Below, piece after piece: positions 8,534 through 20,113 of a stretch of 22,140 nucleotides of DNA (position 1 is the first letter of the stretch; every line of letters starts with the position of its first letter). The translations under genes were made by a program, and so were the position numbers. The notes below the pieces were generated by a model. That model searched no databases, was not told where the DNA came from, and was given only the letters and a program-made list of their open reading frames with translations. This DNA is from a virus: the IMG/VR virus record IMGVR_UViG_3300042350_001348, positions 1-22,140 of that record. The stretch is one strand, 5' to 3'.

Positions 8534-8841
8534 ATATTCCATCTTCGCTGAAGATCATTGGTAGAGAATACGATGTCGTAAAACTAGACTACGACAATGA
8601 ACAAGTTGGTGGAGTAGATTTTGATAATTGCACAATAGGAATTAAATCAGGACAACAAAAACTATTAGAGGCTGATACACTACTTCATGAATCTCTACAC
8701 ATCATTGATGAAATATTCCAACTTGAGTTAACAGAGCGTCAGGTATATTGTGTTGTCAGTGGTATAATGGCCCTACTTAGAGATAATGAAACTCTTTTGC
8801 CATATATTAACGATGCCCTTGTTTCACCGAGAAAACTATGA
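8530..8841 (+). CDS. Small HExxH metallopeptidase-like phage protein
   Basis: This is a 103-residue zincin-like protein. The motif T-L-L-H-E-S-L-H-I-I-D-E-I-F places His53, Glu54 and His57. Glu69 in L-T-E-R-Q-V is a likely third ligand. The N-terminal half is a beta-rich segment with I-G-R-E-Y-D-V and a strand before the helix. Such proteins (L-L-H-E..H..D..L....E..V....G....L..N) are found in many phages and look like stripped-down ImmA/IrrE- or SprT-like folds; their targets are unknown. It is coupled to the lysozyme upstream and to the large repeat protein downstream by ATGA-type overlaps. Confidence 0.75.
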   Translation: MNIPSSLKIIGREYDVVKLDYDNEQVGGVDFDNCTIGIKSGQQKLLEADTLLHESLHIIDEIFQLELTERQVYCVVSGIMALLRDNETLLPYINDALVSPRKL

Positions 8842-11800
8842 GTAAATTCACCGCAAAGCAAAAAGAAATTGTAGCCCGTAAGCTTGGCTATGACGGTCCT
8901 ATGCAGGGCTTTGATGAGTTTTTGCAAAGCTCTCCTGCTTTGGCTATAAAGTATGGCATGGTTGCTAAAAAATATATGGCTAAGGGTGGTGTTGTTAATA
9001 AGTATGCTGCTGGTGGTAGTGTTTGGGGCGGCAAAACATTTTCCGGCCACACGCTGCCAGACAACTGGGACAACTTATCTGGCGCGCAAAAGATCAACTT
9101 CTTCAACCAGAACGCCATCACCCCTGAACAGATTAAAGCCGCCGCCCCAAACACTACAGACGCAGACATTCAATCTTGGCGCACGTATATGGGGTATACA
9201 GTGGCACCAGCGCCTGCACCTACATCAGCGCCGACAGCAGCGCCTGCACCAGCGCCAGCAGCACAGTGGGGAGGGCGGACCTTTTCCGGACACACGCTAC
9301 CAAGTGACTGGGACAACTTATCTGGCGCGGATAAGATCAAGTTCTTTAACGAAAAAAACGTAACCCCTGAACAGATTAAAGCCGCCGATCCAAACGCCAC
9401 GGACGCAGACATTCAATCGTGGCGCAATTATATGGGGTACACGGCAGGGGCACCAGCAGCGCCTACGCCAGCGCCGACAGCGCGTCCTACGTTGACGCCT
9501 ACGCCAGCGCCTACGCCTGCACCTACGCCGCGTCCTACGCCTGCGCCTACGTTGCGTCCTACGTTGGCGCCTACGCCAGCGCCGACAGCGCGTCCTACGT
9601 TGACGCCTACGCCTGCGCCTACGTTGCGTCCTACGTTGGCGCCTACGCCTGCGCCTACGTTGCGTCCTACGTTGGCGCCTACGCCAGCGCCGACAGCGCG
9701 TCCTACGTTGACGCCTACGCCTGCACCTACGCCTGCACCTACGCCGCGTCCTACGTTGACGCCTACGCCTGCACCTACGCCGCGTCCTACGTTGACGCCT
9801 ACGCCAGCGCCGACAGCGCGTCCTACGTTGACGCCTACGCCTGCACCTACGCCTGCGCCTGCGGGCGCTGTTACACCAAAAACAAATCCTGCTACGGCAT
9901 ATACAGACACTGGTGTTCCGATTGTTGGTTCAACGCAGCAAGTGACAGCGCAACAAACCGCTACGCAAGATTTGAGTCTTGATACTACGAGGTCTGAATA
10001 TCAACTTGGCGTTGCTCCTACAGGAACCGTAGTAAAAACAGATTCTGCAGAACAGGCAACTGCAGGTGAAGGTGGCGAGGGTGAAACATATGAAACCAGC
10101 ACAGCATTGACTGATGTGCAGGATCAAATGAATAAGCTCATTGCAGAAAAAGGCACGTTGTCAGAAGGTTCTAAAGCTGTAGCTCAAACAGGAATTTTGT
10201 CTGGGGGTGCTACAGCTAAAGCTGTCGAGCCTGCCACTGCCGCAAAAGTGTCGGCTGTTAAACCATTAATTACAGCAGAGGATATGCTTGCAGCAGCAGC
10301 CACTGTTGCTGACGTTGGTGGTCCGTCTTCTGCTACTGCTCAAACTACAAACGAAAAATTCATAGCAGAAGTTGCAAAACTGACAGGTTCTACACCAGAA
10401 GCAAAAGCTGCAACCGACTACACTCTCGGCACTGCTGGTGCTGCTACGATGGCACCTACTACGGTGGGGGAAGCAGCAAAAGCTGGTGAAATTCCTGAAG
10501 CCATTGCAGAGCAAAGCACGGCTACGTCTACTCTTGAAGCACAACAACGCGATGTTGTTGAGAAAGAACTTGTAGATGTTGCTCGTCAGAATCTACAGAT
10601 TACAGAGCCTATTAAGGCTATAGCGGCTGTAGCTGACAAACTTAATCAAGCTGCTATTGTCATTGCACAGCAGGCTAATTTTGACCAAGCGTTAGCTTCG
10701 ACAGAGCAAGGACGGGTTGAATCTGCTTCGACAATTCAGGGACAGCTTACGTCTTTGATGCAGCAGTTTAACGATGGCACTCCTGCATGGGCTGCTGGCG
10801 CTATGCGAGCGGCTAATGCCGCTATGGCAGCGCGTGGTCTTGGTGGTAGTAGCATGGCAGGTGCTGCCATTGTTCAAGCGACTATGGAGGCTGCTACACC
10901 CATTGCTGCTGCAGATGCTAAGGTGTTTGAACAGATGCAATTGACGAATCTAAACAATCGTCAACAGGTTGCTTTGGCAAATGCTGCTGCTTCTCAAAAT
11001 CTTCAGCTTGCCAATCTGAACGCTCGTCAACAAGCTGCGTTGCAAAATAGCTCTAATGCGTTTGCGTTGCAATCACAAAGCTTGTCTAACCAACAGGCTG
11101 TTGTTCTTGCTAATGCTCAGATTGCTGCTGCTGTGCAACAGAAAAACCTTGATGTTAAAACATCGGTGGCGCTGACCAATGCAGCAAAGTATGCTGAAGT
11201 TAACAATCTCAATTTGTCATATCGTCAGCAAGCAAACCTGCAACGTTCTGCTGAGAACATTCAGATTGACATTGCCAATCTAAACGCTCGTCAACAAACC
11301 TCGTTGGCTAATCTGCAAGTGAGGGCATCTATCAAGGGTCAAGAGCTTAGTAACGAACAGCAGATGGCTGTGTTGCAAAGCACTCAAAACTTTGAGGCTG
11401 CACAATTTGATGCAACAGCACAACAACAATCTTTCATTGCTGAGTTTAATGCCAATGCTGCGCTAAAGGGACAAGTGCTGTCAAATGAACAGCAAACTGC
11501 CTTGTTCAATGTTAGCAACGTTATGCAAGAACGAGGCATGAAGTTTAATGCTGAACAACAAGTGAATTTGTTGAACACGACAAATGCAATGCAGGTTGAT
11601 CTTGCAAACTTGTCGAACAAGCAACAGACAGCGCTTGCCAACGCGCAGATTGAGGCTGCACTAAAAGGACAAGAACTCAGCAATAAGCAGCAAGTGAACA
11701 TCACTAATGCTGCACGTGTTGCTGAAATTGCTCAAGTAAACTTCACTGCAGAGCAGCAAACCGCACTAGCTAACGCGCAATTTATCCAGCAGATTAACCT

Positions 11801-12578
11801 GCAAGATATGAGCAATGAGCAGGCTGTAGTGCTTGCTAATGCTGCCACCACAGCCTCAATGGACATGGCAAATCTGAACGCAAAGCAACAAGCTGCTGTT
11901 CAGAATGCTCAAGCCTTTTTGGCAATGGACATGGCAAATCTTGACAACACGCAGAAGACATCGTTGTTCAAGGCGCAACAGCTTGCACAGGTTGCGTTGT
12001 CCGATGCTGCTGCTGAAAATGCAGCAAAGCAATTTAATGCCTCAAATAAACAGCAGGCTGATCAGTTTTCTGCATCGCTAACAACTCAGGTGTCGCAGTT
12101 TAATGCTGCACAGACCAACGCTATTAATCAGTTTAACGCTGGTCAAGAGAATGCGATGGAGCAGTTTAACTCGCAGATGAAGACGCAGCGTGAGCAATTT
12201 AATGTAACCAATCGCACTGTCATTGATCAAGCTAATGCTCAGTTGTTGGCACAGGTTAGCACTGCCAACACTGCTGCTGTCAACGCTGCCAACTTCGCTA
12301 ACGCACAAGCCATGAACAACATGACGATGGCTCAGTATAATAACGAAGTGCAGCTATATCGCGACCAAGTGAAGATGGTGTACGATAGCTATGAACGTGC
12401 AGAAGATAGGGCTGCGTCTATGGCTACAGCGTTGTTGACAGCCGATGTTAAACGAGAAGAAATTGACGCTAACACAAGTGCCTCATATGGTAAATTGATT
12501 GGTGCATTCCTCGGCACTTCTACTGGTGAAAAAGCAGTAGACAAGGTTGTTGGTTGGCTCGGTGGGCTATTCGGTTAA
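8838..12578 (+). CDS. Giant repeat-rich virion/ejection protein
   Basis: A 1,246-residue protein with a modular layout. A basic N-terminal segment contains Y-M-A-K-G-G-V-V and A-A-G-G-S-V (residues 46-62). Two 59-residue modules lie at 63-121 and 144-202. A Pro/Thr/Ala minisatellite linker covers about 209-343. A mixed helical region covers about 345-690. A long Gln/Asn/Ala helix covers about 700-1160 with 22- and then exact 11-residue periodicity. The hydrophobic C-terminal tail is G-K-L-I-G-A-F-L-G....[10 protein letters not shown]. No signal peptide or enzyme motif was found. Size, composition and position after the lysis genes and before two other large proteins suggest an internal core or ejection protein. 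A tape-measure-like or fibre role is the alternative. ATG 8838 overlaps the previous stop by ATGA. Confidence 0.7.
9024..9200 (+). repeat. 59-residue module, copy 1
   Basis: Residues 63-121 of the giant protein, [17 protein letters not shown] through W-R-T-Y-M-G-Y-T. The second copy lies at 9267-9443. About four fifths of residues agree between copies. The core L-S-G-A-x-K-I-x-F-F-N....[15 protein letters not shown] looks like a compact helical domain. Confidence 0.85.
9267..9443 (+). repeat. 59-residue module, copy 2
   Basis: Residues 144-202 of the giant protein, [12 protein letters not shown] through W-R-N-Y-M-G-Y-T. It is separated from copy 1 by an Ala/Pro linker of about 22 residues. 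DNA identity is high (for example attaaagccgccg and gcagacattcaatc in both), so the duplication is fairly recent. Confidence 0.85.
9463..9870 (+). repeat. 36-bp Pro/Thr/Ala minisatellite
   Basis: The array is built of hexamers (cctacg, cctgcg, ttgcgt, ttggcg, gcgcgt), most often arranged as 36-bp units. They encode P-T-P-A-P-T-(A/L/P)-R-P-T-L-(A/T), with a few 12-bp insertions of P-T-P-A. About ten units are present. The unit has no stop codons in several frames, which produces long meaningless open frames on both strands. In the protein it should act as an extended proline-rich spacer. Confidence 0.9.
10935..12260 (+). repeat. 22-/11-residue helical repeats (hendecads)
   Basis: From residue 700 the giant protein repeats an L-x-N-L-(N/S)-x-(R/K)-Q-Q-x-A-L-x-N-A pattern about every 22 residues. 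From residue 1065 to 1141 (12030-12260) seven consecutive 11-residue units start with Q-F-N, Q-F-S or Q-A-N. An 11-residue period is the signature of a right-handed coiled coil or a long amphipathic helix. The copies are divergent in DNA, so the pattern is kept at protein level. Confidence 0.85.
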
Positions 12579-12587
12579 GGAATAACA

Positions 12588-12788
12588 ATGCAAAATTACA
12601 AAAAGTTTATGGCGCAAGTTGAAGAGCGCATTAGTGGCATGAGTCGTAAGCCGTCTAAGTCGGACGGCATCATGGCTCGAAAAGAGAAAGCTGCTAGTGC
12701 AGATCAAGACTACATCGACACTGTTGCTTCTTACATCGCCACCATTAGAAAAGCTGCACAGAAAGTGAAGGCAAAGAATGTCTCCTGA
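12588..12788 (+). CDS. Small basic phage protein (66 residues)
   Basis: A 66-residue, lysine- and arginine-rich protein: M-Q-N-Y-K-K-F-M-A-Q-V-E-E-R-I-S-G-M-S-R-K-P-S, then K-A-A-S-A-D-Q-D-Y-I-D and a C-terminal helix with R-K-A-A-Q-K-V-K-A-K. TAAGGAA before ATG 12588 is a good ribosome site. The stop lies 8 bases inside the next gene. The net positive charge would suit binding to DNA or to an acidic partner inside the head, but there is no recognised domain. It sits between two putative virion proteins and is most likely a virion-associated or assembly factor. Confidence 0.65.
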   Translation: MQNYKKFMAQVEERISGMSRKPSKSDGIMARKEKAASADQDYIDTVASYIATIRKAAQKVKAKNVS

Positions 12789-13236
12789 TTTTCTTCATCA
12801 ACCTATTCCGGGTATCTCATTGACGGGAGCACCCGGTAATGCTCCTTGGGAACAACCTCCTAAGTATACGTCGATTGATGAAGTCGTTGATTACTATTCT
12901 GATCTTCTAGTTGAAGAAGAAACAATTGGTAATGTTATCGACGTCATCAAGCGCAATGTTCCTTTGCTGACAATTGCTGAAGGTATTATGCGTACCGGTA
13001 TTATGCAAGGTATGCATACTATTGATGCTGGTATGTTGGTTAAGCCTATATTGGTTGAACTACTCATTGCACTTGCTGAAATCTACGGTGTCAAATATGT
13101 CATTCAGGCAAGCGACATTGAGACGAATAGATTTATGCCGATTGATGCTGTTGAGAAAGTGGTGGCAGAAACTGTCACTGAGATGCAGGAAGTCAAAGAA
13201 GAAACTGGCGGCATTGTCGCTAGGAGGAAAAAGTAA
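12778..13236 (+). CDS. Conserved phage virion-associated protein (PIPG.SLT..PWE motif)
   Basis: A 152-residue protein with an N-terminal P-I-P-G-I-S-L-T-G-A-P-G-N-A-P-W-E-Q-P-P. The P-x-P-G-x-S-L-T...P-W-E-x-P-P stretch, followed by a D-E-(V/A)..Y/F..L helix and a G-x-H-(T/S)-(I/V)-D-(A/V)-G-M-L-(V/I)-K-P segment, recurs in conserved hypothetical proteins of aquatic phages, including T4-like cyanophages. No biochemical function is known to me. Residues about 60-110 form hydrophobic helices but not clear membrane spans. The C-terminus is basic (A-R-R-K-K). It overlaps the previous gene by 11 bases and the next start by one (TAATG). Confidence 0.72.
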   Translation: MSPDFLHQPIPGISLTGAPGNAPWEQPPKYTSIDEVVDYYSDLLVEEETIGNVIDVIKRNVPLLTIAEGIMRTGIMQGMHTIDAGMLVKPILVELLIALAEIYGVKYVIQASDIETNRFMPIDAVEKVVAETVTEMQEVKEETGGIVARRKK

Positions 13237-14906
13237 TGGGATTCAGTCTTGCTGGTTTCGGCGCTGGTCTTGCTGAAAGCGTCTACGAACGCATTGAGGA
13301 AGAGCGTAAGTTTTCCAATCTTGCTTTGCAGGGGCGCATTGAACGTGCGTCTGTGCTGAAGATGCAGCAAGACAAAGAAGCTAAGGCAATTGAAGAAGAA
13401 TTGCGTCAGCGTAGGGATAGGCTTGTAGAGCTTGGTGTTACCGATCAAACTCTTCAAAAGGCATATCTGACTTCACCGCTTGCATACGAAACACTTGAGA
13501 AAGCTCAGAAGAGTGGACTCAATGTTGATCCTGCAAAGCTCATTACAGTGAATCAAGACAAGCTGTTTACTGGCACTTCCGATGAGTTGATTAGGAAAGC
13601 TACTGCCGCACAGGACGAAGTTGCACCAGCAACCATTGCTACTGGCGAAGGTCGGTCATGGCTGTCTCCGTCTGCTGGTCAAATGCAACGCAGGTTTGAA
13701 CAAACTGCTGGTGCACGTGGAATGACTCTGCAGGATGTAGCACGTGCTGAATCTGCTGCTCGTCCAAAGATGCCAGAGCCTGCTGCAACCATCAACTTTG
13801 GTTTGCTGAAGAAGGAAGATACGTCAACGATTGAGAACAGGCAAGGCATCCTTGATCGAAAGGCTGCAGACGCTATTGCTGCTGATCCTAACAGCCCAGA
13901 AGCTAAGGCAGCTAAGAAAGCTGCTGACGACTATCGTGCTGCGTCGGCATCTGTTATTCCTCCAAAGGAAGACAAGACAACGTGGAAACAACGACTTGAG
14001 CGTTTTGAAACAGCCTATGCCGATGCTGCAGATAAGTTTGGCCCTGATAGCAAAGAAGCTGTTGCTGCTAAAAATCGTGTTGATGCCTATCGTGCAACAA
14101 CGTCTAATCTGACAGAAGATCAGCTAGATCACGCGAAGAAGCTCTCTCGCGCTCAAGCCATTGTCTTTGATAAGACTCTGACAAATGTCACCGAGCAAGA
14201 TAGGAAATGGGCAGAAGGCTATCTGCGCGAATATGACGCATATAAGAAGCGACAAGAGGCTGCTGGTAAATCCGATGAAAAGATTCCGTCGCCTAATTCG
14301 CTAATCAGCATTGGTCGCACTGCTGGTGCTAATGCTGTTCGTGCAACGTTTGGTGCTGGCGCTTTGGGTAAGCAGTTGTCGTTTATTACCAATGCTGATG
14401 GTAGCACTTCTATGCAGTATTCTGGTGATAAGCCAGATGTACAAAAGCAACTTATCCGTCGCGAACAAGAAGGTATTGTTGCCTCAATGCGTCCGTATAT
14501 GACATCGGATGGTAAAGTGGCAGATAAGAAGGTTGAAGTTGCGCTGCAGTCTTTTGGCATCACGCTTGATGCCAATCGACGCCCTGTGTTGATTGAGGCT
14601 CCAGCACCAGCAGAGCCTCGTCAGGCTCCTGCGCTGCCGTCACGTACTCCTACAGCGGCTCCAGCGGCTTCTGCTGCTCCAGCAAGGTCTACCCGTCCTG
14701 CAACGCCTACACAGGTTGCTGATGAATTCGCCAACATTGGTGCGCCTGCGGGTGGTGCAGCAGCGCCGCGCACTCAGCAACGCCCAGCTAAACCAGCGTC
14801 TGTGCCGGGTGCTCCTACCGGTCACTCTGTTGGAGACTACGTTGAGGGCAAGGGCTATGCTGTGTATAACAAGCAGGGCAAGCTAATTGGCTATGCCACA
14901 GAATAA
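13236..14906 (+). CDS. Alanine-rich putative virion/ejection protein (556 residues)
   Basis: This is a mostly helical protein. The N-terminus (G-F-S-L-A-G-F-G-A-G-L-A-E-S-V) is followed by a charged coiled-coil-like helix (about residues 20-65, rich in Glu, Arg and Gln). The middle is Ala/Lys/Asp-rich with phrases such as D-P-N-S-P-E-A-K-A-A-K-K-A-A-D-D-Y-R-A and G-P-D-S-K-E-A-V-A-A-K, which look like a degenerate internal repeat. An Ala/Pro/Arg linker at about 450-525 leads to a short C-terminal domain of about 30 residues, with G-H-S-V-G-D-Y-V-E-G-K-G-Y and ending K-L-I-G-Y-A. No catalytic motif or signal peptide is visible. The ribosome site AGGAGG at 13221-13226 is the best in this block. 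An internal virion or ejection role is inferred from context. Confidence 0.65.
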   Translation: MGFSLAGFGAGLAESVYERIEEERKFSNLALQGRIERASVLKMQQDKEAKAIEEELRQRRDRLVELGVTDQTLQKAYLTSPLAYETLEKAQKSGLNVDPAKLITVNQDKLFTGTSDELIRKATAAQDEVAPATIATGEGRSWLSPSAGQMQRRFEQTAGARGMTLQDVARAESAARPKMPEPAATINFGLLKKEDTSTIENRQGILDRKAADAIAADPNSPEAKAAKKAADDYRAASASVIPPKEDKTTWKQRLERFETAYADAADKFGPDSKEAVAAKNRVDAYRATTSNLTEDQLDHAKKLSRAQAIVFDKTLTNVTEQDRKWAEGYLREYDAYKKRQEAAGKSDEKIPSPNSLISIGRTAGANAVRATFGAGALGKQLSFITNADGSTSMQYSGDKPDVQKQLIRREQEGIVASMRPYMTSDGKVADKKVEVALQSFGITLDANRRPVLIEAPAPAEPRQAPALPSRTPTAAPAASAAPARSTRPATPTQVADEFANIGAPAGGAAAPRTQQRPAKPASVPGAPTGHSVGDYVEGKGYAVYNKQGKLIGYATE

Positions 14907-14915
14907 GGAATACTA

Positions 14916-17900
14916 ATGCGTTTCGTTCCTCTGTCAGAGGCAACTAACGAACAAGACAAGGCGCAGACTAATCCCCTGCGCTTTGTTCCGTTGGAAGCTG
15001 AAGCACCTGCTGCAACAAAGTTTGTACCGGCTAGTCAGGCTATTTCAATTGATGAAATTCGTAAGCAAGCCGACGAAGATCGTAAAACCTTTCAAGCAGA
15101 AACCGGACTAGCACCATCAACAATGGCACCTGTTGAAGGTGCTGGTGGTGCTGCTTTTGGTGTGTTTGCTGTACAAGGAAAACAGCGTCAGCAAAACATT
15201 GAAAAGCGTAAGGAAGAACAGAAGGCTCAGGAGATTCCGTTCGAACAACTCGTTAAGCGAGACGACTACTTCAATATCGCCAACAGCTACATGAAGGCTG
15301 TTGGGCAACCAACGTTTGATGCAAAGAAAGAGTCTCGCGAAGACTTTGTAAATCGCTTCTATAGTCAGCGTCGATTTGCTGAATTCAACACTGTATTCGG
15401 AACAATTCCAGAACTGGCGGCGTTGAAGAATGCTGGTCTTGACGACAAAGAATCCATTGCTCTCGGTAGGCGTCTATACGAAAAAGCTGAAGCTGCACCG
15501 GGTACTGGTCGTGCTGCTTTCGACATTGCCAAATCTATTCTGGCTGATCCGACAACATATGCTGGTTTGGGATTTGGCAAAGCAGCGTCTTCTATTGTTG
15601 CTCGTCAAGGCGTAAAGAAGCTGTCAGAAGACGTTGCCACCCGTGCTGTAGAAAAGCAAGCATTGGGACGGACAGCAAAACGTGCTGAAATTGGTGTATC
15701 TGCTGGTGCAGAAGCTGCCATTGCTGGTGCTGCCGACATCACTGCTCAACGCGCTGAAGTTGAAACAGCACGTGTGATGGGTGAAGAAGTGCCCGAATAT
15801 AGTGCTACACGCACTTTGTTTGCGTCTACGATTGGTGGTGTGGTCAGCGGTGTAGTCTCTGCCAAAACAACGAAGGTTCCGACAATTAAGGAGCGTGGTG
15901 AAATTATTGGCGAAGAGCTTACTCGTCGCAACATCACCACAGCAAGTCCGTCTGCACCGTTGACACCGACTGAAGAGAACATTGCTAACGCAATGACACG
16001 TGACTTTGAAACTGTGCATTCACAGTATGTCAAAGCCTATGGCAAATCTCTTCTCAACCAAATCGATCCTGCAACGGCTGTAACGGACAGCAAAGTACAG
16101 GAAGCCTACAGCAAAACTGCTGTGAAGATGGCTTTGCAATTGATGAAGGACAATCCTACGCAGTTTGGTTTTAACCCTGCGAAGGAACTCATCAGCGATG
16201 CTGTATATCGAACCCTGTCGCAGATTGATAAGGTTGACGACACAGCGCTAGAGTCTGCCATTAACAAAGTTGGTTTGCGTCCAGATCAGTTTGCAGCAAT
16301 GACGAAGACGACAGCGTCTGAAGCTGGTCAAATCTTGCAGAGCTATTCTGTTGCTGCAAAGGCTTTGAAGCGTCTGCGTGAAATCGATCCCGGCTTCAAC
16401 AAGCAGATGGAAGAGCTTTATGGAGTTGATAACGATCAAGTTGGTGCGCTGTCAAAGATTGGTCAAGGCATTCAGCGTGTTGAGCGTGAATCTAAAGCCA
16501 TCATCACTTCCGGTATCGACACGCTGGCACGTAACATCGTCGGTAACACCATCGGCGTCACCATGAAGACAGGTGTGCAGATGCTTGAAGGCATTCGCTA
16601 CAGCGTCGGTACTGCGCTTAGCGCCGCTGATGGCGAGAAGCTGACGGTGCTGCAGAAGACAATGGGAGATGCCTTCAAAGATTCTCTAGGCATGTTCTAT
16701 TACATGAAAAAGAATGGATTGGCAGAAGACGTCACTGAGAAGGTGTTGGCTAACAATCCTTCGCTGCTCAGTCGCATCTCTAGCGCTACACAAGACACAG
16801 ACTTAAATGATGTTAGCAAACTTGCACGTTGGTCACAAACTCTTAACAGCGCAATGGACGGCATGTATCGTCGTGCATCGTTTTCTGCATCGTTGGAACG
16901 AGAACTTCGTCGTGTTGGTGTCGATCTGTACAAAGATGTTCTAGCAAAGAATAAAGAGATTCCAACGTCTATTCTGAAGAAAGCATTGGACGAATCATTC
17001 AAAGACACATTCTCATACACACCTCAGATGTATGCGAAGTCGTTCTCATCGTTTGAAGATACTTTCGAAAAGGTGGGAGCACAGTTTGTTCGTGTTGCTG
17101 AAGCACCCGGTATGTCGTTGGCAATTCCGTTCCCACGCTTTGTAACCAACGCCATTGCTTTCCAATACAAATACAGCCCGTTGGGTTTTATTGGCGCAAC
17201 AGAATATGTTACTCAAGCGGCTAAGCTACGTGCTGCTGGTCAGCTTGATAAGGCTGAAATGGTGGCACGTGAAGGGGCTACAAAGGCTGTTCAAGCCACT
17301 GTTGGACTCGGCATGCTTGCTGCAGCCTATGACTATCGCAAGAACAATCCTGATCTGAACTGGAATGAAGTGAAGGTAGGTGGTGGAATTGTTGATATAA
17401 AGGCAATTTTTCCGATAGCACCATATCTCGGATTGGCTGATTGGCTTGCACGTGACGTAGAGGGTGGCACTGGCAGTGCTCCAAAGAAAGACATTGTCGA
17501 GTCTATTCTCGGTTTCAAAGTTCCTGCTGGCACTCAGCATACTCTGTTGCAAACAGCACAAGAAGTGTTTGATAGCGATGAAAAGGGTGCGAAGTTCCTT
17601 GAAGGGCTCGGCAAAACTGCTGGCGACTTCATGGGTCGCTTTACTCAGCCGTTTGTTACAAAGCAAATCTTCGACTTGTTCGACCTGATTCGTGGTGATG
17701 AAGCTGTGATGGCGCGTGATCCGAATGTTCTCACCGCTGAAACTGGTGCTGGTCGTGCTGCAGAAGCTGCTGTACAGCGTGTGCAGGCTAAGCTGCCTGT
17801 TGTCAAAGAAGAGTTGGCACCAGCTATTGTCAGGTTTAAGGAACAAGAGACACCGTCAAAGGAAGGTGAGTTCTTCAATCGACTCGTTGGCTTTAGAACA

Positions 17901-18392
17901 ACGACAAGCCGAAGCAATGCTGAAGAAGAAATTATCAGGCACAGCACAGACTTGTACAAAGTGTATGGACGTCCTAGTGGTGACAAAGAATTTGATCGCA
18001 TGTACATCCAGAACACCAACAAGTATGCACTCGACTTTGTTGATGAAGCTATTCGTCGTCCTGACTATAAAGCTGGAACAAGCGAAGAAAAGAAAATGAT
18101 GATTGACAACGCCATCAAGAAGGCTGTTGAAATCTCTAAGGATAGGACAGAAGGAACCTTTCAAGAGAAGTTTCCTGACAAAATTGATCGCATTCGTTAT
18201 CTGCGTTTACCAAGCGAAGAGAAGAAGATTGTTAACCAGCGTTACGCACGTGATCATGGTGGCAGGACAATGGAGGAAGACAAAGCCTATAACTTGCTTC
18301 CAAACTACAGCGACTTTGGAAATACTAAATACGCCAAAGGCGGCATGGTACAACAGATGACTAGCTTGTTCGGGAAACACTCATGGGCTTGA
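14916..18392 (+). CDS. Large putative internal virion/ejection protein (1,158 residues)
   Basis: The N-terminus carries three copies of (R/K)-F-V-P at residues 2-5, 22-25 and 35-38. Then comes a Glu/Lys/Gln-rich segment. Several Ala/Gly hydrophobic stretches could insert in a membrane: E-G-A-G-G-A-A-F-G-V-F-A-V, A-G-A-E-A-A-I-A-G-A-A, T-I-G-G-V-V-S-G-V-V-S, and later V-G-L-G-M-L-A-A-A-Y. A P-F-P-R-F-V-T-N-A-I-A-F-Q-Y-K-Y-S-P segment in the second half recurs in large aquatic phage virion proteins. The C-terminus holds Y-A-K-G-G-M-V. The length and last-but-one position in the block recall the large ejection proteins of podoviruses (T7 gp16-like in position only; no transglycosylase motif found). 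AAGGAA before ATG 14916 supports the start. Confidence 0.7.
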   Translation: MRFVPLSEATNEQDKAQTNPLRFVPLEAEAPAATKFVPASQAISIDEIRKQADEDRKTFQAETGLAPSTMAPVEGAGGAAFGVFAVQGKQRQQNIEKRKEEQKAQEIPFEQLVKRDDYFNIANSYMKAVGQPTFDAKKESREDFVNRFYSQRRFAEFNTVFGTIPELAALKNAGLDDKESIALGRRLYEKAEAAPGTGRAAFDIAKSILADPTTYAGLGFGKAASSIVARQGVKKLSEDVATRAVEKQALGRTAKRAEIGVSAGAEAAIAGAADITAQRAEVETARVMGEEVPEYSATRTLFASTIGGVVSGVVSAKTTKVPTIKERGEIIGEELTRRNITTASPSAPLTPTEENIANAMTRDFETVHSQYVKAYGKSLLNQIDPATAVTDSKVQEAYSKTAVKMALQLMKDNPTQFGFNPAKELISDAVYRTLSQIDKVDDTALESAINKVGLRPDQFAAMTKTTASEAGQILQSYSVAAKALKRLREIDPGFNKQMEELYGVDNDQVGALSKIGQGIQRVERESKAIITSGIDTLARNIVGNTIGVTMKTGVQMLEGIRYSVGTALSAADGEKLTVLQKTMGDAFKDSLGMFYYMKKNGLAEDVTEKVLANNPSLLSRISSATQDTDLNDVSKLARWSQTLNSAMDGMYRRASFSASLERELRRVGVDLYKDVLAKNKEIPTSILKKALDESFKDTFSYTPQMYAKSFSSFEDTFEKVGAQFVRVAEAPGMSLAIPFPRFVTNAIAFQYKYSPLGFIGATEYVTQAAKLRAAGQLDKAEMVAREGATKAVQATVGLGMLAAAYDYRKNNPDLNWNEVKVGGGIVDIKAIFPIAPYLGLADWLARDVEGGTGSAPKKDIVESILGFKVPAGTQHTLLQTAQEVFDSDEKGAKFLEGLGKTAGDFMGRFTQPFVTKQIFDLFDLIRGDEAVMARDPNVLTAETGAGRAAEAAVQRVQAKLPVVKEELAPAIVRFKEQETPSKEGEFFNRLVGFRTTTSRSNAEEEIIRHSTDLYKVYGRPSGDKEFDRMYIQNTNKYALDFVDEAIRRPDYKAGTSEEKKMMIDNAIKKAVEISKDRTEGTFQEKFPDKIDRIRYLRLPSEEKKIVNQRYARDHGGRTMEEDKAYNLLPNYSDFGNTKYAKGGMVQQMTSLFGKHSWA

Positions 18393-20113
18393 TCAACAAA
18401 CTCACCAGCAAAGTAGCCAGCAAAGCTCTGACAAAGGCTGCACCGAAGGTGGTGTTGTCTCTGTCAGAGCAGATGGCAGAGGAAGCTGCACCGGCAGCAC
18501 CAGTTAAGAAGGCTCTGGTAGCCCCTAAAAAGGCTTCTAAGGCTGTGAAAGCAGCAGAGCCTAGTCCACCTACGTCAACGCTTGCTGACGAGCCTGTAGA
18601 GGCTGCTGCCGATGAGCCTGTTGTGCTGTCGTTGTCTGAGCGCATGGCTAAGGAAAGCAATGTTGCTGCACAGACTGATGAGATGTTGGCAGCGCCAGAG
18701 TCTAAATACAACTTCCCCAACAAAGCTTTCAGCGACGAAGACTACGCTGCTGCTGAAGCCTATTTGAAAGACAACAGCACTGCTAACGTCTTCAACGCGA
18801 AGAAGCTTGACGAAGAAGCCTTTGCTAATGAGCTTCAAAGCACAGCAGCATGGCTCAAGGGCATTCCCTACAAAGAACAGCCTCCGTTGCCGTATAAGCC
18901 GAAGGACTATGTTCCGTCTGAAGAGGTTGGTGCTGACTTCAAAGCAAAGCCGATGGTGGACGTTGAAGATGTTCCTGAGCCTCAGGTTGCCTCTGAGTTT
19001 CTTAGTGGCGACTTAAAGAGCTTCATCAAGACAAAGCAGCGCAACGCTGTTCTTGAAGACATTCGCAAATATCGGGAATACAACTATTCGCGTATTAAAC
19101 GCATGCCAGATACTGAGAACTTTGACGATGTTGTCATTGGTGTTGCTCAAGGAGACTTCAGAGGTAAGTATGGCAGGGAAGCCGATCTAAGCACTCGCAA
19201 AGATAAGCGATTGCTTATGAAGACGTTGCAGGCAAAGCAAGAGGAACTAGACAGCCTTCGTAGGAAGCATGCTAATGTTCCTGCCAAGGTGCTATATCAC
19301 GGCAACGTAAAGTCGAACATTGAGGCAATCAAAGAATCTGGCTTTGCTAGACCTTCGACGTTTACAAGTCAGCACGATGAGCTTAATGTTGGTGCTCCGT
19401 CGTTGACAAGTGATGTCAATCTAAACTTCACCAGCACCAGATTCGGTGGCAAAAACCCTGAAAAGTTTGTCTCATATGAGATGCCATATGCTGACTACGT
19501 GTTCTCACGTGTCAACATGTCAACAGATCAATATGCGAATAAAGACCTCAACACCATTGCCAGATCAATCACTGGTGTTCCCGGTAGGGCTCGTCCGTTA
19601 AATCTTCCGAGAGCAGACATGTATGAAACAGAGTCTGCGATGCCAGAGATGGACAAGATGCGTAGGCGCTCTGATGTTCAGACGCAGATGGAAATTGCTG
19701 AGAAGATTCCTCAGTATGAGAAATATAGGGAGCGTCAGAAACAAGCTGGAGAAAATATTAACAAGATTGTCTCTGACACTAAAGGCACTACCATGACTCA
19801 GAAGCAAGCGTTAGACACCTATCGCAACGCTAAAGAATATCTGTACGCCATCTCCAACATAGGCAAGCTTACGACAGCGAAGACGGGTATGGGTCACAGC
19901 TATGGTAGTGCCATTGCTCAGTTGGAGTTTAAGGCACCAGTGTTTAAGCGGGCAGCAGATGTGTTGCGACAGAACAACGCTACAGAAAAAGCTGACAATC
20001 TGCAGCAGCTATACAATCTTGTCAACGTAAGCGACACCGATACGAAGGCTGCTGGCAAGGTCGTTGCTCTCACCGACAAATTTAACAAAGGCGGCTTAGT
20101 AAGCCGCAAATAA
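18383..20113 (+). CDS. Putative ejected effector with possible ART-like core
   Basis: A 576-residue protein whose start overlaps the previous stop by 10 bases. The N-terminal 100 residues are Ala/Lys/Pro-rich and repeat V-V-L-S-L-S-E-(Q/R)-M-A-(E/K)-E at about 23-34 and 80-91. Residues about 300-380 read V-L-Y-H-G-N, then I-K-E-S-G-F, H-D-E-L-N-V-G-A-P-S-L-T-S-D, R-F-G-G and V-S-Y-E-M-P. A strand-ending Y-H-G, a later S-L-T-S-D and a downstream Glu is an order seen in ADP-ribosyltransferase-like folds of phage polyvalent proteins, but the match is weak. The C-terminal part is helical and ends F-N-K-G-G-L-V-S-R-K. It is last in the + strand block. Virion cargo is inferred; a purely structural role is the alternative. 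Confidence 0.6.
   Translation: MGLINKLTSKVASKALTKAAPKVVLSLSEQMAEEAAPAAPVKKALVAPKKASKAVKAAEPSPPTSTLADEPVEAAADEPVVLSLSERMAKESNVAAQTDEMLAAPESKYNFPNKAFSDEDYAAAEAYLKDNSTANVFNAKKLDEEAFANELQSTAAWLKGIPYKEQPPLPYKPKDYVPSEEVGADFKAKPMVDVEDVPEPQVASEFLSGDLKSFIKTKQRNAVLEDIRKYREYNYSRIKRMPDTENFDDVVIGVAQGDFRGKYGREADLSTRKDKRLLMKTLQAKQEELDSLRRKHANVPAKVLYHGNVKSNIEAIKESGFARPSTFTSQHDELNVGAPSLTSDVNLNFTSTRFGGKNPEKFVSYEMPYADYVFSRVNMSTDQYANKDLNTIARSITGVPGRARPLNLPRADMYETESAMPEMDKMRRRSDVQTQMEIAEKIPQYEKYRERQKQAGENINKIVSDTKGTTMTQKQALDTYRNAKEYLYAISNIGKLTTAKTGMGHSYGSAIAQLEFKAPVFKRAADVLRQNNATEKADNLQQLYNLVNVSDTDTKAAGKVVALTDKFNKGGLVSRK

Follow-up and report, generated by a model that had tools for sequence, protein, structure and literature searches.

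The repeat-bearing ORF (8838–12578, + strand) encoded a protein of 1246 aa within a 22,140-base virus fragment, referred to here as the window. The gene order of the window was tail tube genes, a lysozyme gene, the 1246-aa gene, and genes for proteins of 152 aa (12778–13236), 556 aa (13236–14906) and 1158 aa (14916–18392), the last three also on the + strand; after the 1158-aa gene region, a B12-type ribonucleotide reductase was found on the opposite strand. The relatives and the gene order place the fragment with the HMO-2011-like podoviruses. Another ORF of 407 aa (20–1243, +), the first half of which consisted of 23-residue repeats (RFDNxQTFYSAVV) with a 69-nt period, is probably a structural protein.

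The downstream genes were compared in the 72 loci that had 6.5 kb or more of downstream sequence, some of these loci being overlapping contigs. A homologue of the 152-aa protein lay downstream in 72/72 loci, a homologue of the 1158-aa protein in 65/72, and a 66-aa gene in 36/72; a homologue of the 556-aa protein was recognised in 29/72. The repeat gene is the opening gene of a conserved late module. The 70 complete homologues of the 1158-aa protein formed two length groups (1035–1371 and 1680–1888 aa), which suggests an inserted domain. Searches of the neighbour proteins against PHROG and Pfam gave no family with a relevant function. The annotation of Pelagibacter phage HTVC033P places a putative ferrochelatase gene and two genes for 2OG-Fe(II) oxygenases immediately upstream of the homologue of the repeat gene.

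The 1246-aa protein contained no Cys, and residues 700–1246 contained no Pro. By-eye comparison of homologue sequences showed a conserved N-terminal head with a KGG motif (residues 1–60; 8838–9017, +). A short KGG-hydrophobic motif was shared by this N-terminus and the C-termini of the 1158-aa ORF and of a 576-aa ORF (18383–20113), and is possibly a common targeting or docking signal. A module of about 80 residues (FSGHTLP...WDNLSGA...YMGY) occurred twice in the N-terminal part (9039–9481, +; a 243-nt repeat, 81%) and recurred in a 989-aa ORF, different in its remainder, of loci L025 and L026. The Pro-rich PTPAPT tract (9459–9892, +) had 52 Pro in residues 206–345, was built of tandem repeats at the DNA level, and varied in length among close relatives. 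Between this tract and the helical core lay an Ala/Thr-rich stretch. The core anchor (residues 632–697; 10731–10928, +), with the pattern W-A-x-G ... R-G-L-x-x-S-S ... P-I-A-x-x-D-A, served as HMM anchor in 354 ORFs and was represented by alignment A1 (12 of 32 ORFs found). It was followed by a spacer of 324 residues (10929–11900, +) and by the C anchor (residues 1022–1135; 11901–12242, +), both delimited by the HMM anchors.

Homologues of the repeat protein were found in 22 phage records by tblastn (20 labelled hypothetical, one with an odd name, one without annotation), in at least hundreds of IMG/VR relatives among the matches listed, and in 13 GTDB contigs, which are probably of viral origin and were placed in genome bins. 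The 1246-aa protein was not covered by any Pfam or PHROG family. The BFVD search gave four matches under 1e-3, the top one being A0A6J5QPN3 (60% identical), and these were taken for homologues.

The C-terminal tail (12261–12575, +) was exchanged among homologues. Among 273 relatives, the C-terminal end carried a Peptidase_S74 motif in two and was of the CxVARE type in 13. The Peptidase_S74 chaperone replaced the C-terminus in L009:2436–5906 and L231:1997–6217, one of them confirmed by Pfam, and was absent from the C-terminus of the window protein in a Pfam search. The protein could accordingly be read as the stalk of an external fibre or appendage and not as an ejection protein, since a fibre chaperone ends these two relatives, the Pro-rich tract resembles a stalk, and HMO-2011 has many genes annotated as tail fibre just upstream. 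However, Peptidase_S74 was rare, and the conserved partners were the downstream 152- and 1158-aa genes; we regard a fibre as unlikely.

The 22-residue repeats occupied residues 700–1051 (10935–11990, +) in 16 units, each predicted to form a helix and a turn on the basis of repeat analysis, AlphaFold2 and the capping pattern. Gln stood at position 10 in 15/16 units and at position 11 in 12/16, while position 9 was R/K in 8/16 and E in 5/16; the (R/K)-Q-Q signature given to these units in the original prediction held in about half of them. Seven hendecads (residues 1065–1141; 12030–12260, +) followed, starting with QFN, QFS, QFN, QFN, QFN, QFN and QAN. Unit spacing was exact in both zones and the residues varied between units, and the seven repeats that had been called exact were therefore exact in spacing only. 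Tandem Repeats Finder reported no repeat at the DNA level in the 11- and 22-mer zones.

Within residues 680–1180, identity at lags of 11, 22, 33 and 44 was 6.6, 10.6, 5.7 and 12.5 SD over shuffles, and the QFN zone had a lag-11 identity of 8.5 SD over shuffles. Fourier analysis of hydrophobicity over residues 700–1064 gave peaks at 2.75, 2.2 and 7.34 residues above the 95% shuffle maximum, all of them harmonics of 11 or 22, and the period of 3.67 residues of a classic hendecad helix was absent from this spectrum. The predicted 11/22-residue signal was thus present. The 3.67 period was strong in the 22-mers for charged residues, Gln and Asn, and was shown by the large hydrophobic residues of the QFN zone; position 2 of the QFN unit was a large hydrophobic residue in 98% of cases, nearly always F. 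A solenoid that wraps DNA was set aside, because residues 700–1051 have 20 K+R against 22 D+E and the zone is therefore without positive charge.

The length of the repeat zone was measured as the spacer, that is, the residues between the flanking HMM anchors. Loci overlapped, the same contig being fetched repeatedly, so counts were made by distinct spacer; relatives share ancestry, so these counts are not independent trials. In the first set, 102/102 distinct spacers were 5 mod 11, and 89/102 had a length of 104+110n residues. The enlarged set comprised 354 ORFs with 266 distinct spacers, with the best 80 matches kept per scan, and its frequencies are not a census. Among the matches listed, 265/266 distinct spacers were 5 mod 11, the single exception being L298 with 89 residues, and 203/266 were of the form 104+110n. 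The latter series had spacers of 104 (117 distinct spacers among those listed), 214 (21), 324 (40, including the window, with 104 + 2 × 110), 434 (16) and 544 (9) residues. A second series had spacers of 60 (1), 170 (5), 280 (3) and 390 (1) residues, and the other listed lengths were 16 (4), 38 (4), 93 (40), 115 (1), 126 (1) and 159 (2). Among the 99 listed spacers of more than 110 residues, 86 belonged to 104+110n, nine to 60+110n and four to neither. The 93-residue class (e.g., L101 and L102) was short of precisely one hendecad, missing where the repeat zone begins. The length of the QFN zone (114 in all 102 rows) was an HMM extrapolation and was not used.

The strict 11-residue grid with its step of 110 residues is the main result, and the N- and C-terminal lengths followed no such rule. 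The 236 complete N-terminal parts had 183 lengths and the 258 C-terminal tails had 55 lengths, in both cases spread across all residues mod 11. In the four nearest relatives of the window, the part before the core was 529–631 residues long (0 to 102 residues different from the window), and the spacer was 324 residues in all. Parsimony on the anchor tree required 26 changes of length class; well-supported branches forced five changes for the 214 class, four for 324, four for 434 and five for 544. No description of the 110-residue step was found in the open-licence literature, a scope that does not exclude print elsewhere.

Two AlphaFold2 models were built. The window model covered residues 572–1246 and used alignment A3 of 36 family sequences (the window, 15 n=2, 13/16 n=1, 5/8 n=3 and 2/5 n=4 sequences). 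The n=0 model was that of a short relative and used alignment A2 (42/44 distinct n=0 spacers, the two from named phage records being left out). The window model had helices of about 16 residues starting at model residues 180, 202, 224 and onwards by 22, with a pLDDT of 73–88 over residues 181–390 and a pTM of 0.42; its QFN zone had a pLDDT of about 33 and is unreliable. In the n=0 model, the 22-mer zone appeared as long helices with weak confidence (pLDDT 46–65), and the QFN 11-mers formed one long helix (pLDDT 69–84). The two models conflict over the 22-mer zone, where the window model scores better; repeats can lead AlphaFold2 to predict regular solenoids too readily.

Helix capping was analysed in 811 units of 22 residues from 89 of the 102 spacers. 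Position 7 was S/T/D/N in 97% of the units; a hydrophobic residue stood at position 6 in 94% and at position 14 in 100%, and Gln at position 10 in 88%. Gly accounted for 26% of the residues at position 3 and for no more than 3% at any other position, and Pro was absent. We take these motifs to be a helix end (3), a turn, a hydrophobic staple (6), an N-cap (7) and a capping-box Gln (10). Because of this capping pattern, the solenoid is preferred for the 22-mers, and the zone is predicted to be a helix-turn-helix alpha-solenoid. For the QFN part, the predicted long hendecad helix is supported. The hendecad helix of the original prediction was thus retained for the QFN part and given up for the 22-mer zone, and a single helix of up to 460 residues was not supported, in view of the helix-turn-helix arrangement that the window model and the capping pattern give for the 22-mers.

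The alternative, corresponding to the tube of the original prediction, is a hendecad helix without breaks, several copies of which would form an alpha-helical barrel with a Gln/Asn lining, a pilot tube like that of phiX174 H. According to PMC7354561, phiX174 H has hendecads and N/Q/R at 18/23 lumen residues. The 11-residue length grid, the 3.67-residue period of charges, Gln and Asn in the 22-mers, and the QFN zone modelled as a single helix all agree with such a tube. However, S/T/D/N at position 7 in nearly all units and Gly at almost no position other than 3 mark helix ends, and the window model has a turn in every unit. Moreover, 438 residues (324 + 114) at 1.5 Å each would extend for about 660 Å, more than the typical interior of a podovirus head. 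A pilot tube is therefore considered rather unlikely.

Covariation was enriched between residues 3 and 4 apart, a helical spacing, which together with the AlphaFold2 models supported the alpha-helical nature of the zone. Within single length classes, the effective sequences were too few to tell the solenoid from a straight helix. In a turn test fixed beforehand, a turn at unit positions 4–5 corresponded to an anti-diagonal at s = 11 of 44. In the pooled covariation, this anti-diagonal ranked 1/44 at half-width 3, second at half-width 2 and third at half-width 4; of the five data sets, that of the 434 class went against it, the effective sequences numbering 9 to 46. This pattern lends weak support to a turn at positions 4–5. 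A beta-solenoid, prompted by the peaks at 2.2 and 2.75 residues, was rejected, as both models were all-helical and the covariation maxima lay at separations 3 and 4. Comparison of the window model with solved structures gave no significant match (best Foldseek E 0.09, best VIA Z 5.8); the n=0 model had three Foldseek matches (best E 9.2), and a PDB profile search gave just weak coiled-coil matches (seven at E up to 1).

Class consensuses showed that the spacer was composed of five distinct 22-mer types, recurring as blocks. In a comparison of 18 chosen proteins, the Y blocks of the n=3 and n=4 proteins were clearly duplicates of each other (identity 0.34–0.75). A separate lag analysis gave these proteins a lag-110 identity of 0.31–0.55. 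Block recombination is a possible origin of the 110-residue step, and these plain duplicates agree with the view that the step is just a side effect of homologous 330-bp blocks recombining, with only the 22/11 grid being structural. Against it, every Y block that had a partner in its own protein (27/27) was nearer to a block of another virus than to this partner, and the duplications are therefore old; the n=1 class had its best self-match at lag 66, not 110, in 17/21 rows, yet was exactly 110 residues longer; and the divergent 60/170/280/390 group likewise stepped by 110. We give this view close to an even chance. A bolder reading would see a new class of alpha-solenoid whose building unit is a single 22-residue helix with its turn; five such units (110 residues) would complete one superhelical turn, and the rod would extend by whole turns only, as a quantised ruler in the genome-delivery machine. 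We hold it to be unlikely.

Our main reading, with a probability of roughly 0.45, is that HMO-2011-like podoviruses make the protein late as a structural component, most likely of the genome-delivery module, and that its 22-mer solenoid is a spacer or rod that can be lengthened. From a flexible, Pro-rich arm at the N-terminus, the chain would run into the conserved helical core and on through the alpha-solenoid of 22-residue helix-turn units; next would come the long QFN hendecad helix, which probably self-associates, and last the exchangeable C-terminal tail. The number of solenoid units would set a distance, and selection would tolerate lengths on the 11-residue grid, mostly in complete 110-residue blocks, each of five 22-mers. 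The measuring rod of the original prediction thus gains from the quantised spacer length. Presence in virions, a role in DNA delivery and the reason for the 110-residue step are what we infer; a search of the open-licence literature, with print elsewhere not excluded, gave no proteomics of virions for any of the relatives.

A fixed length quantum across deeply diverged viruses would predict which length variants work, and would link the number of residues to a distance in space or to a superhelix turn. The HMO-2011-like viruses that carry this protein are very common short-tailed bacterial viruses of aquatic habitats. Should the protein belong to the ejection apparatus, the T7 and P22 sets would have in it a giant counterpart with no detectable relation to them.

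Homologues with the core and C anchors were found in HMO-2011 (Puniceispirillum phage; ADW08438.1), CRP-1, CRP-2, phiM6, Slicky01, MQM1 and HTVC115P; all were annotated as hypothetical, and a homologue of the 152-aa protein followed in each. Their spacers were 104 residues in HMO-2011, CRP-1 and CRP-2, 38 in phiM6, 60 in Slicky01, 16 in MQM1 and 170 in HTVC115P, compared with 324 in the window. Like T7 genes 14-15-16 and P22 genes 7-20-16, the module consists of clustered late genes with a very large last gene. However, gp14-like ejection proteins have 181–240 aa according to the review PMC8954989, and the window protein has 1246 aa. With hhalign, alignments A1, A2, A4, A5 and A6 showed no detectable similarity to 15 T7, P22 and SIO1 proteins: the probability did not exceed 0.8, and reversed controls reached 1.5. 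The targets were single sequences, which limits the sensitivity. Designed helical repeat proteins (DHR) were among the top look-alikes of the window model; they are artificial, and the matches were not significant. The pilot tube of phiX174 H is a DNA conduit of Gln/Asn-rich helices (PMC7354561) and was absent from the PDB profile matches. Like phiX174 H, the QFN zone had an 11-residue period, power at 3.67 and a predicted long helix; in contrast, the tube domain of phiX174 H has 121 residues, and the 22-mers of the window resemble helix-turn units. The phiX174 H protein, though no relative by sequence, is the nearest working analogue of the Gln/Asn-rich hendecads.
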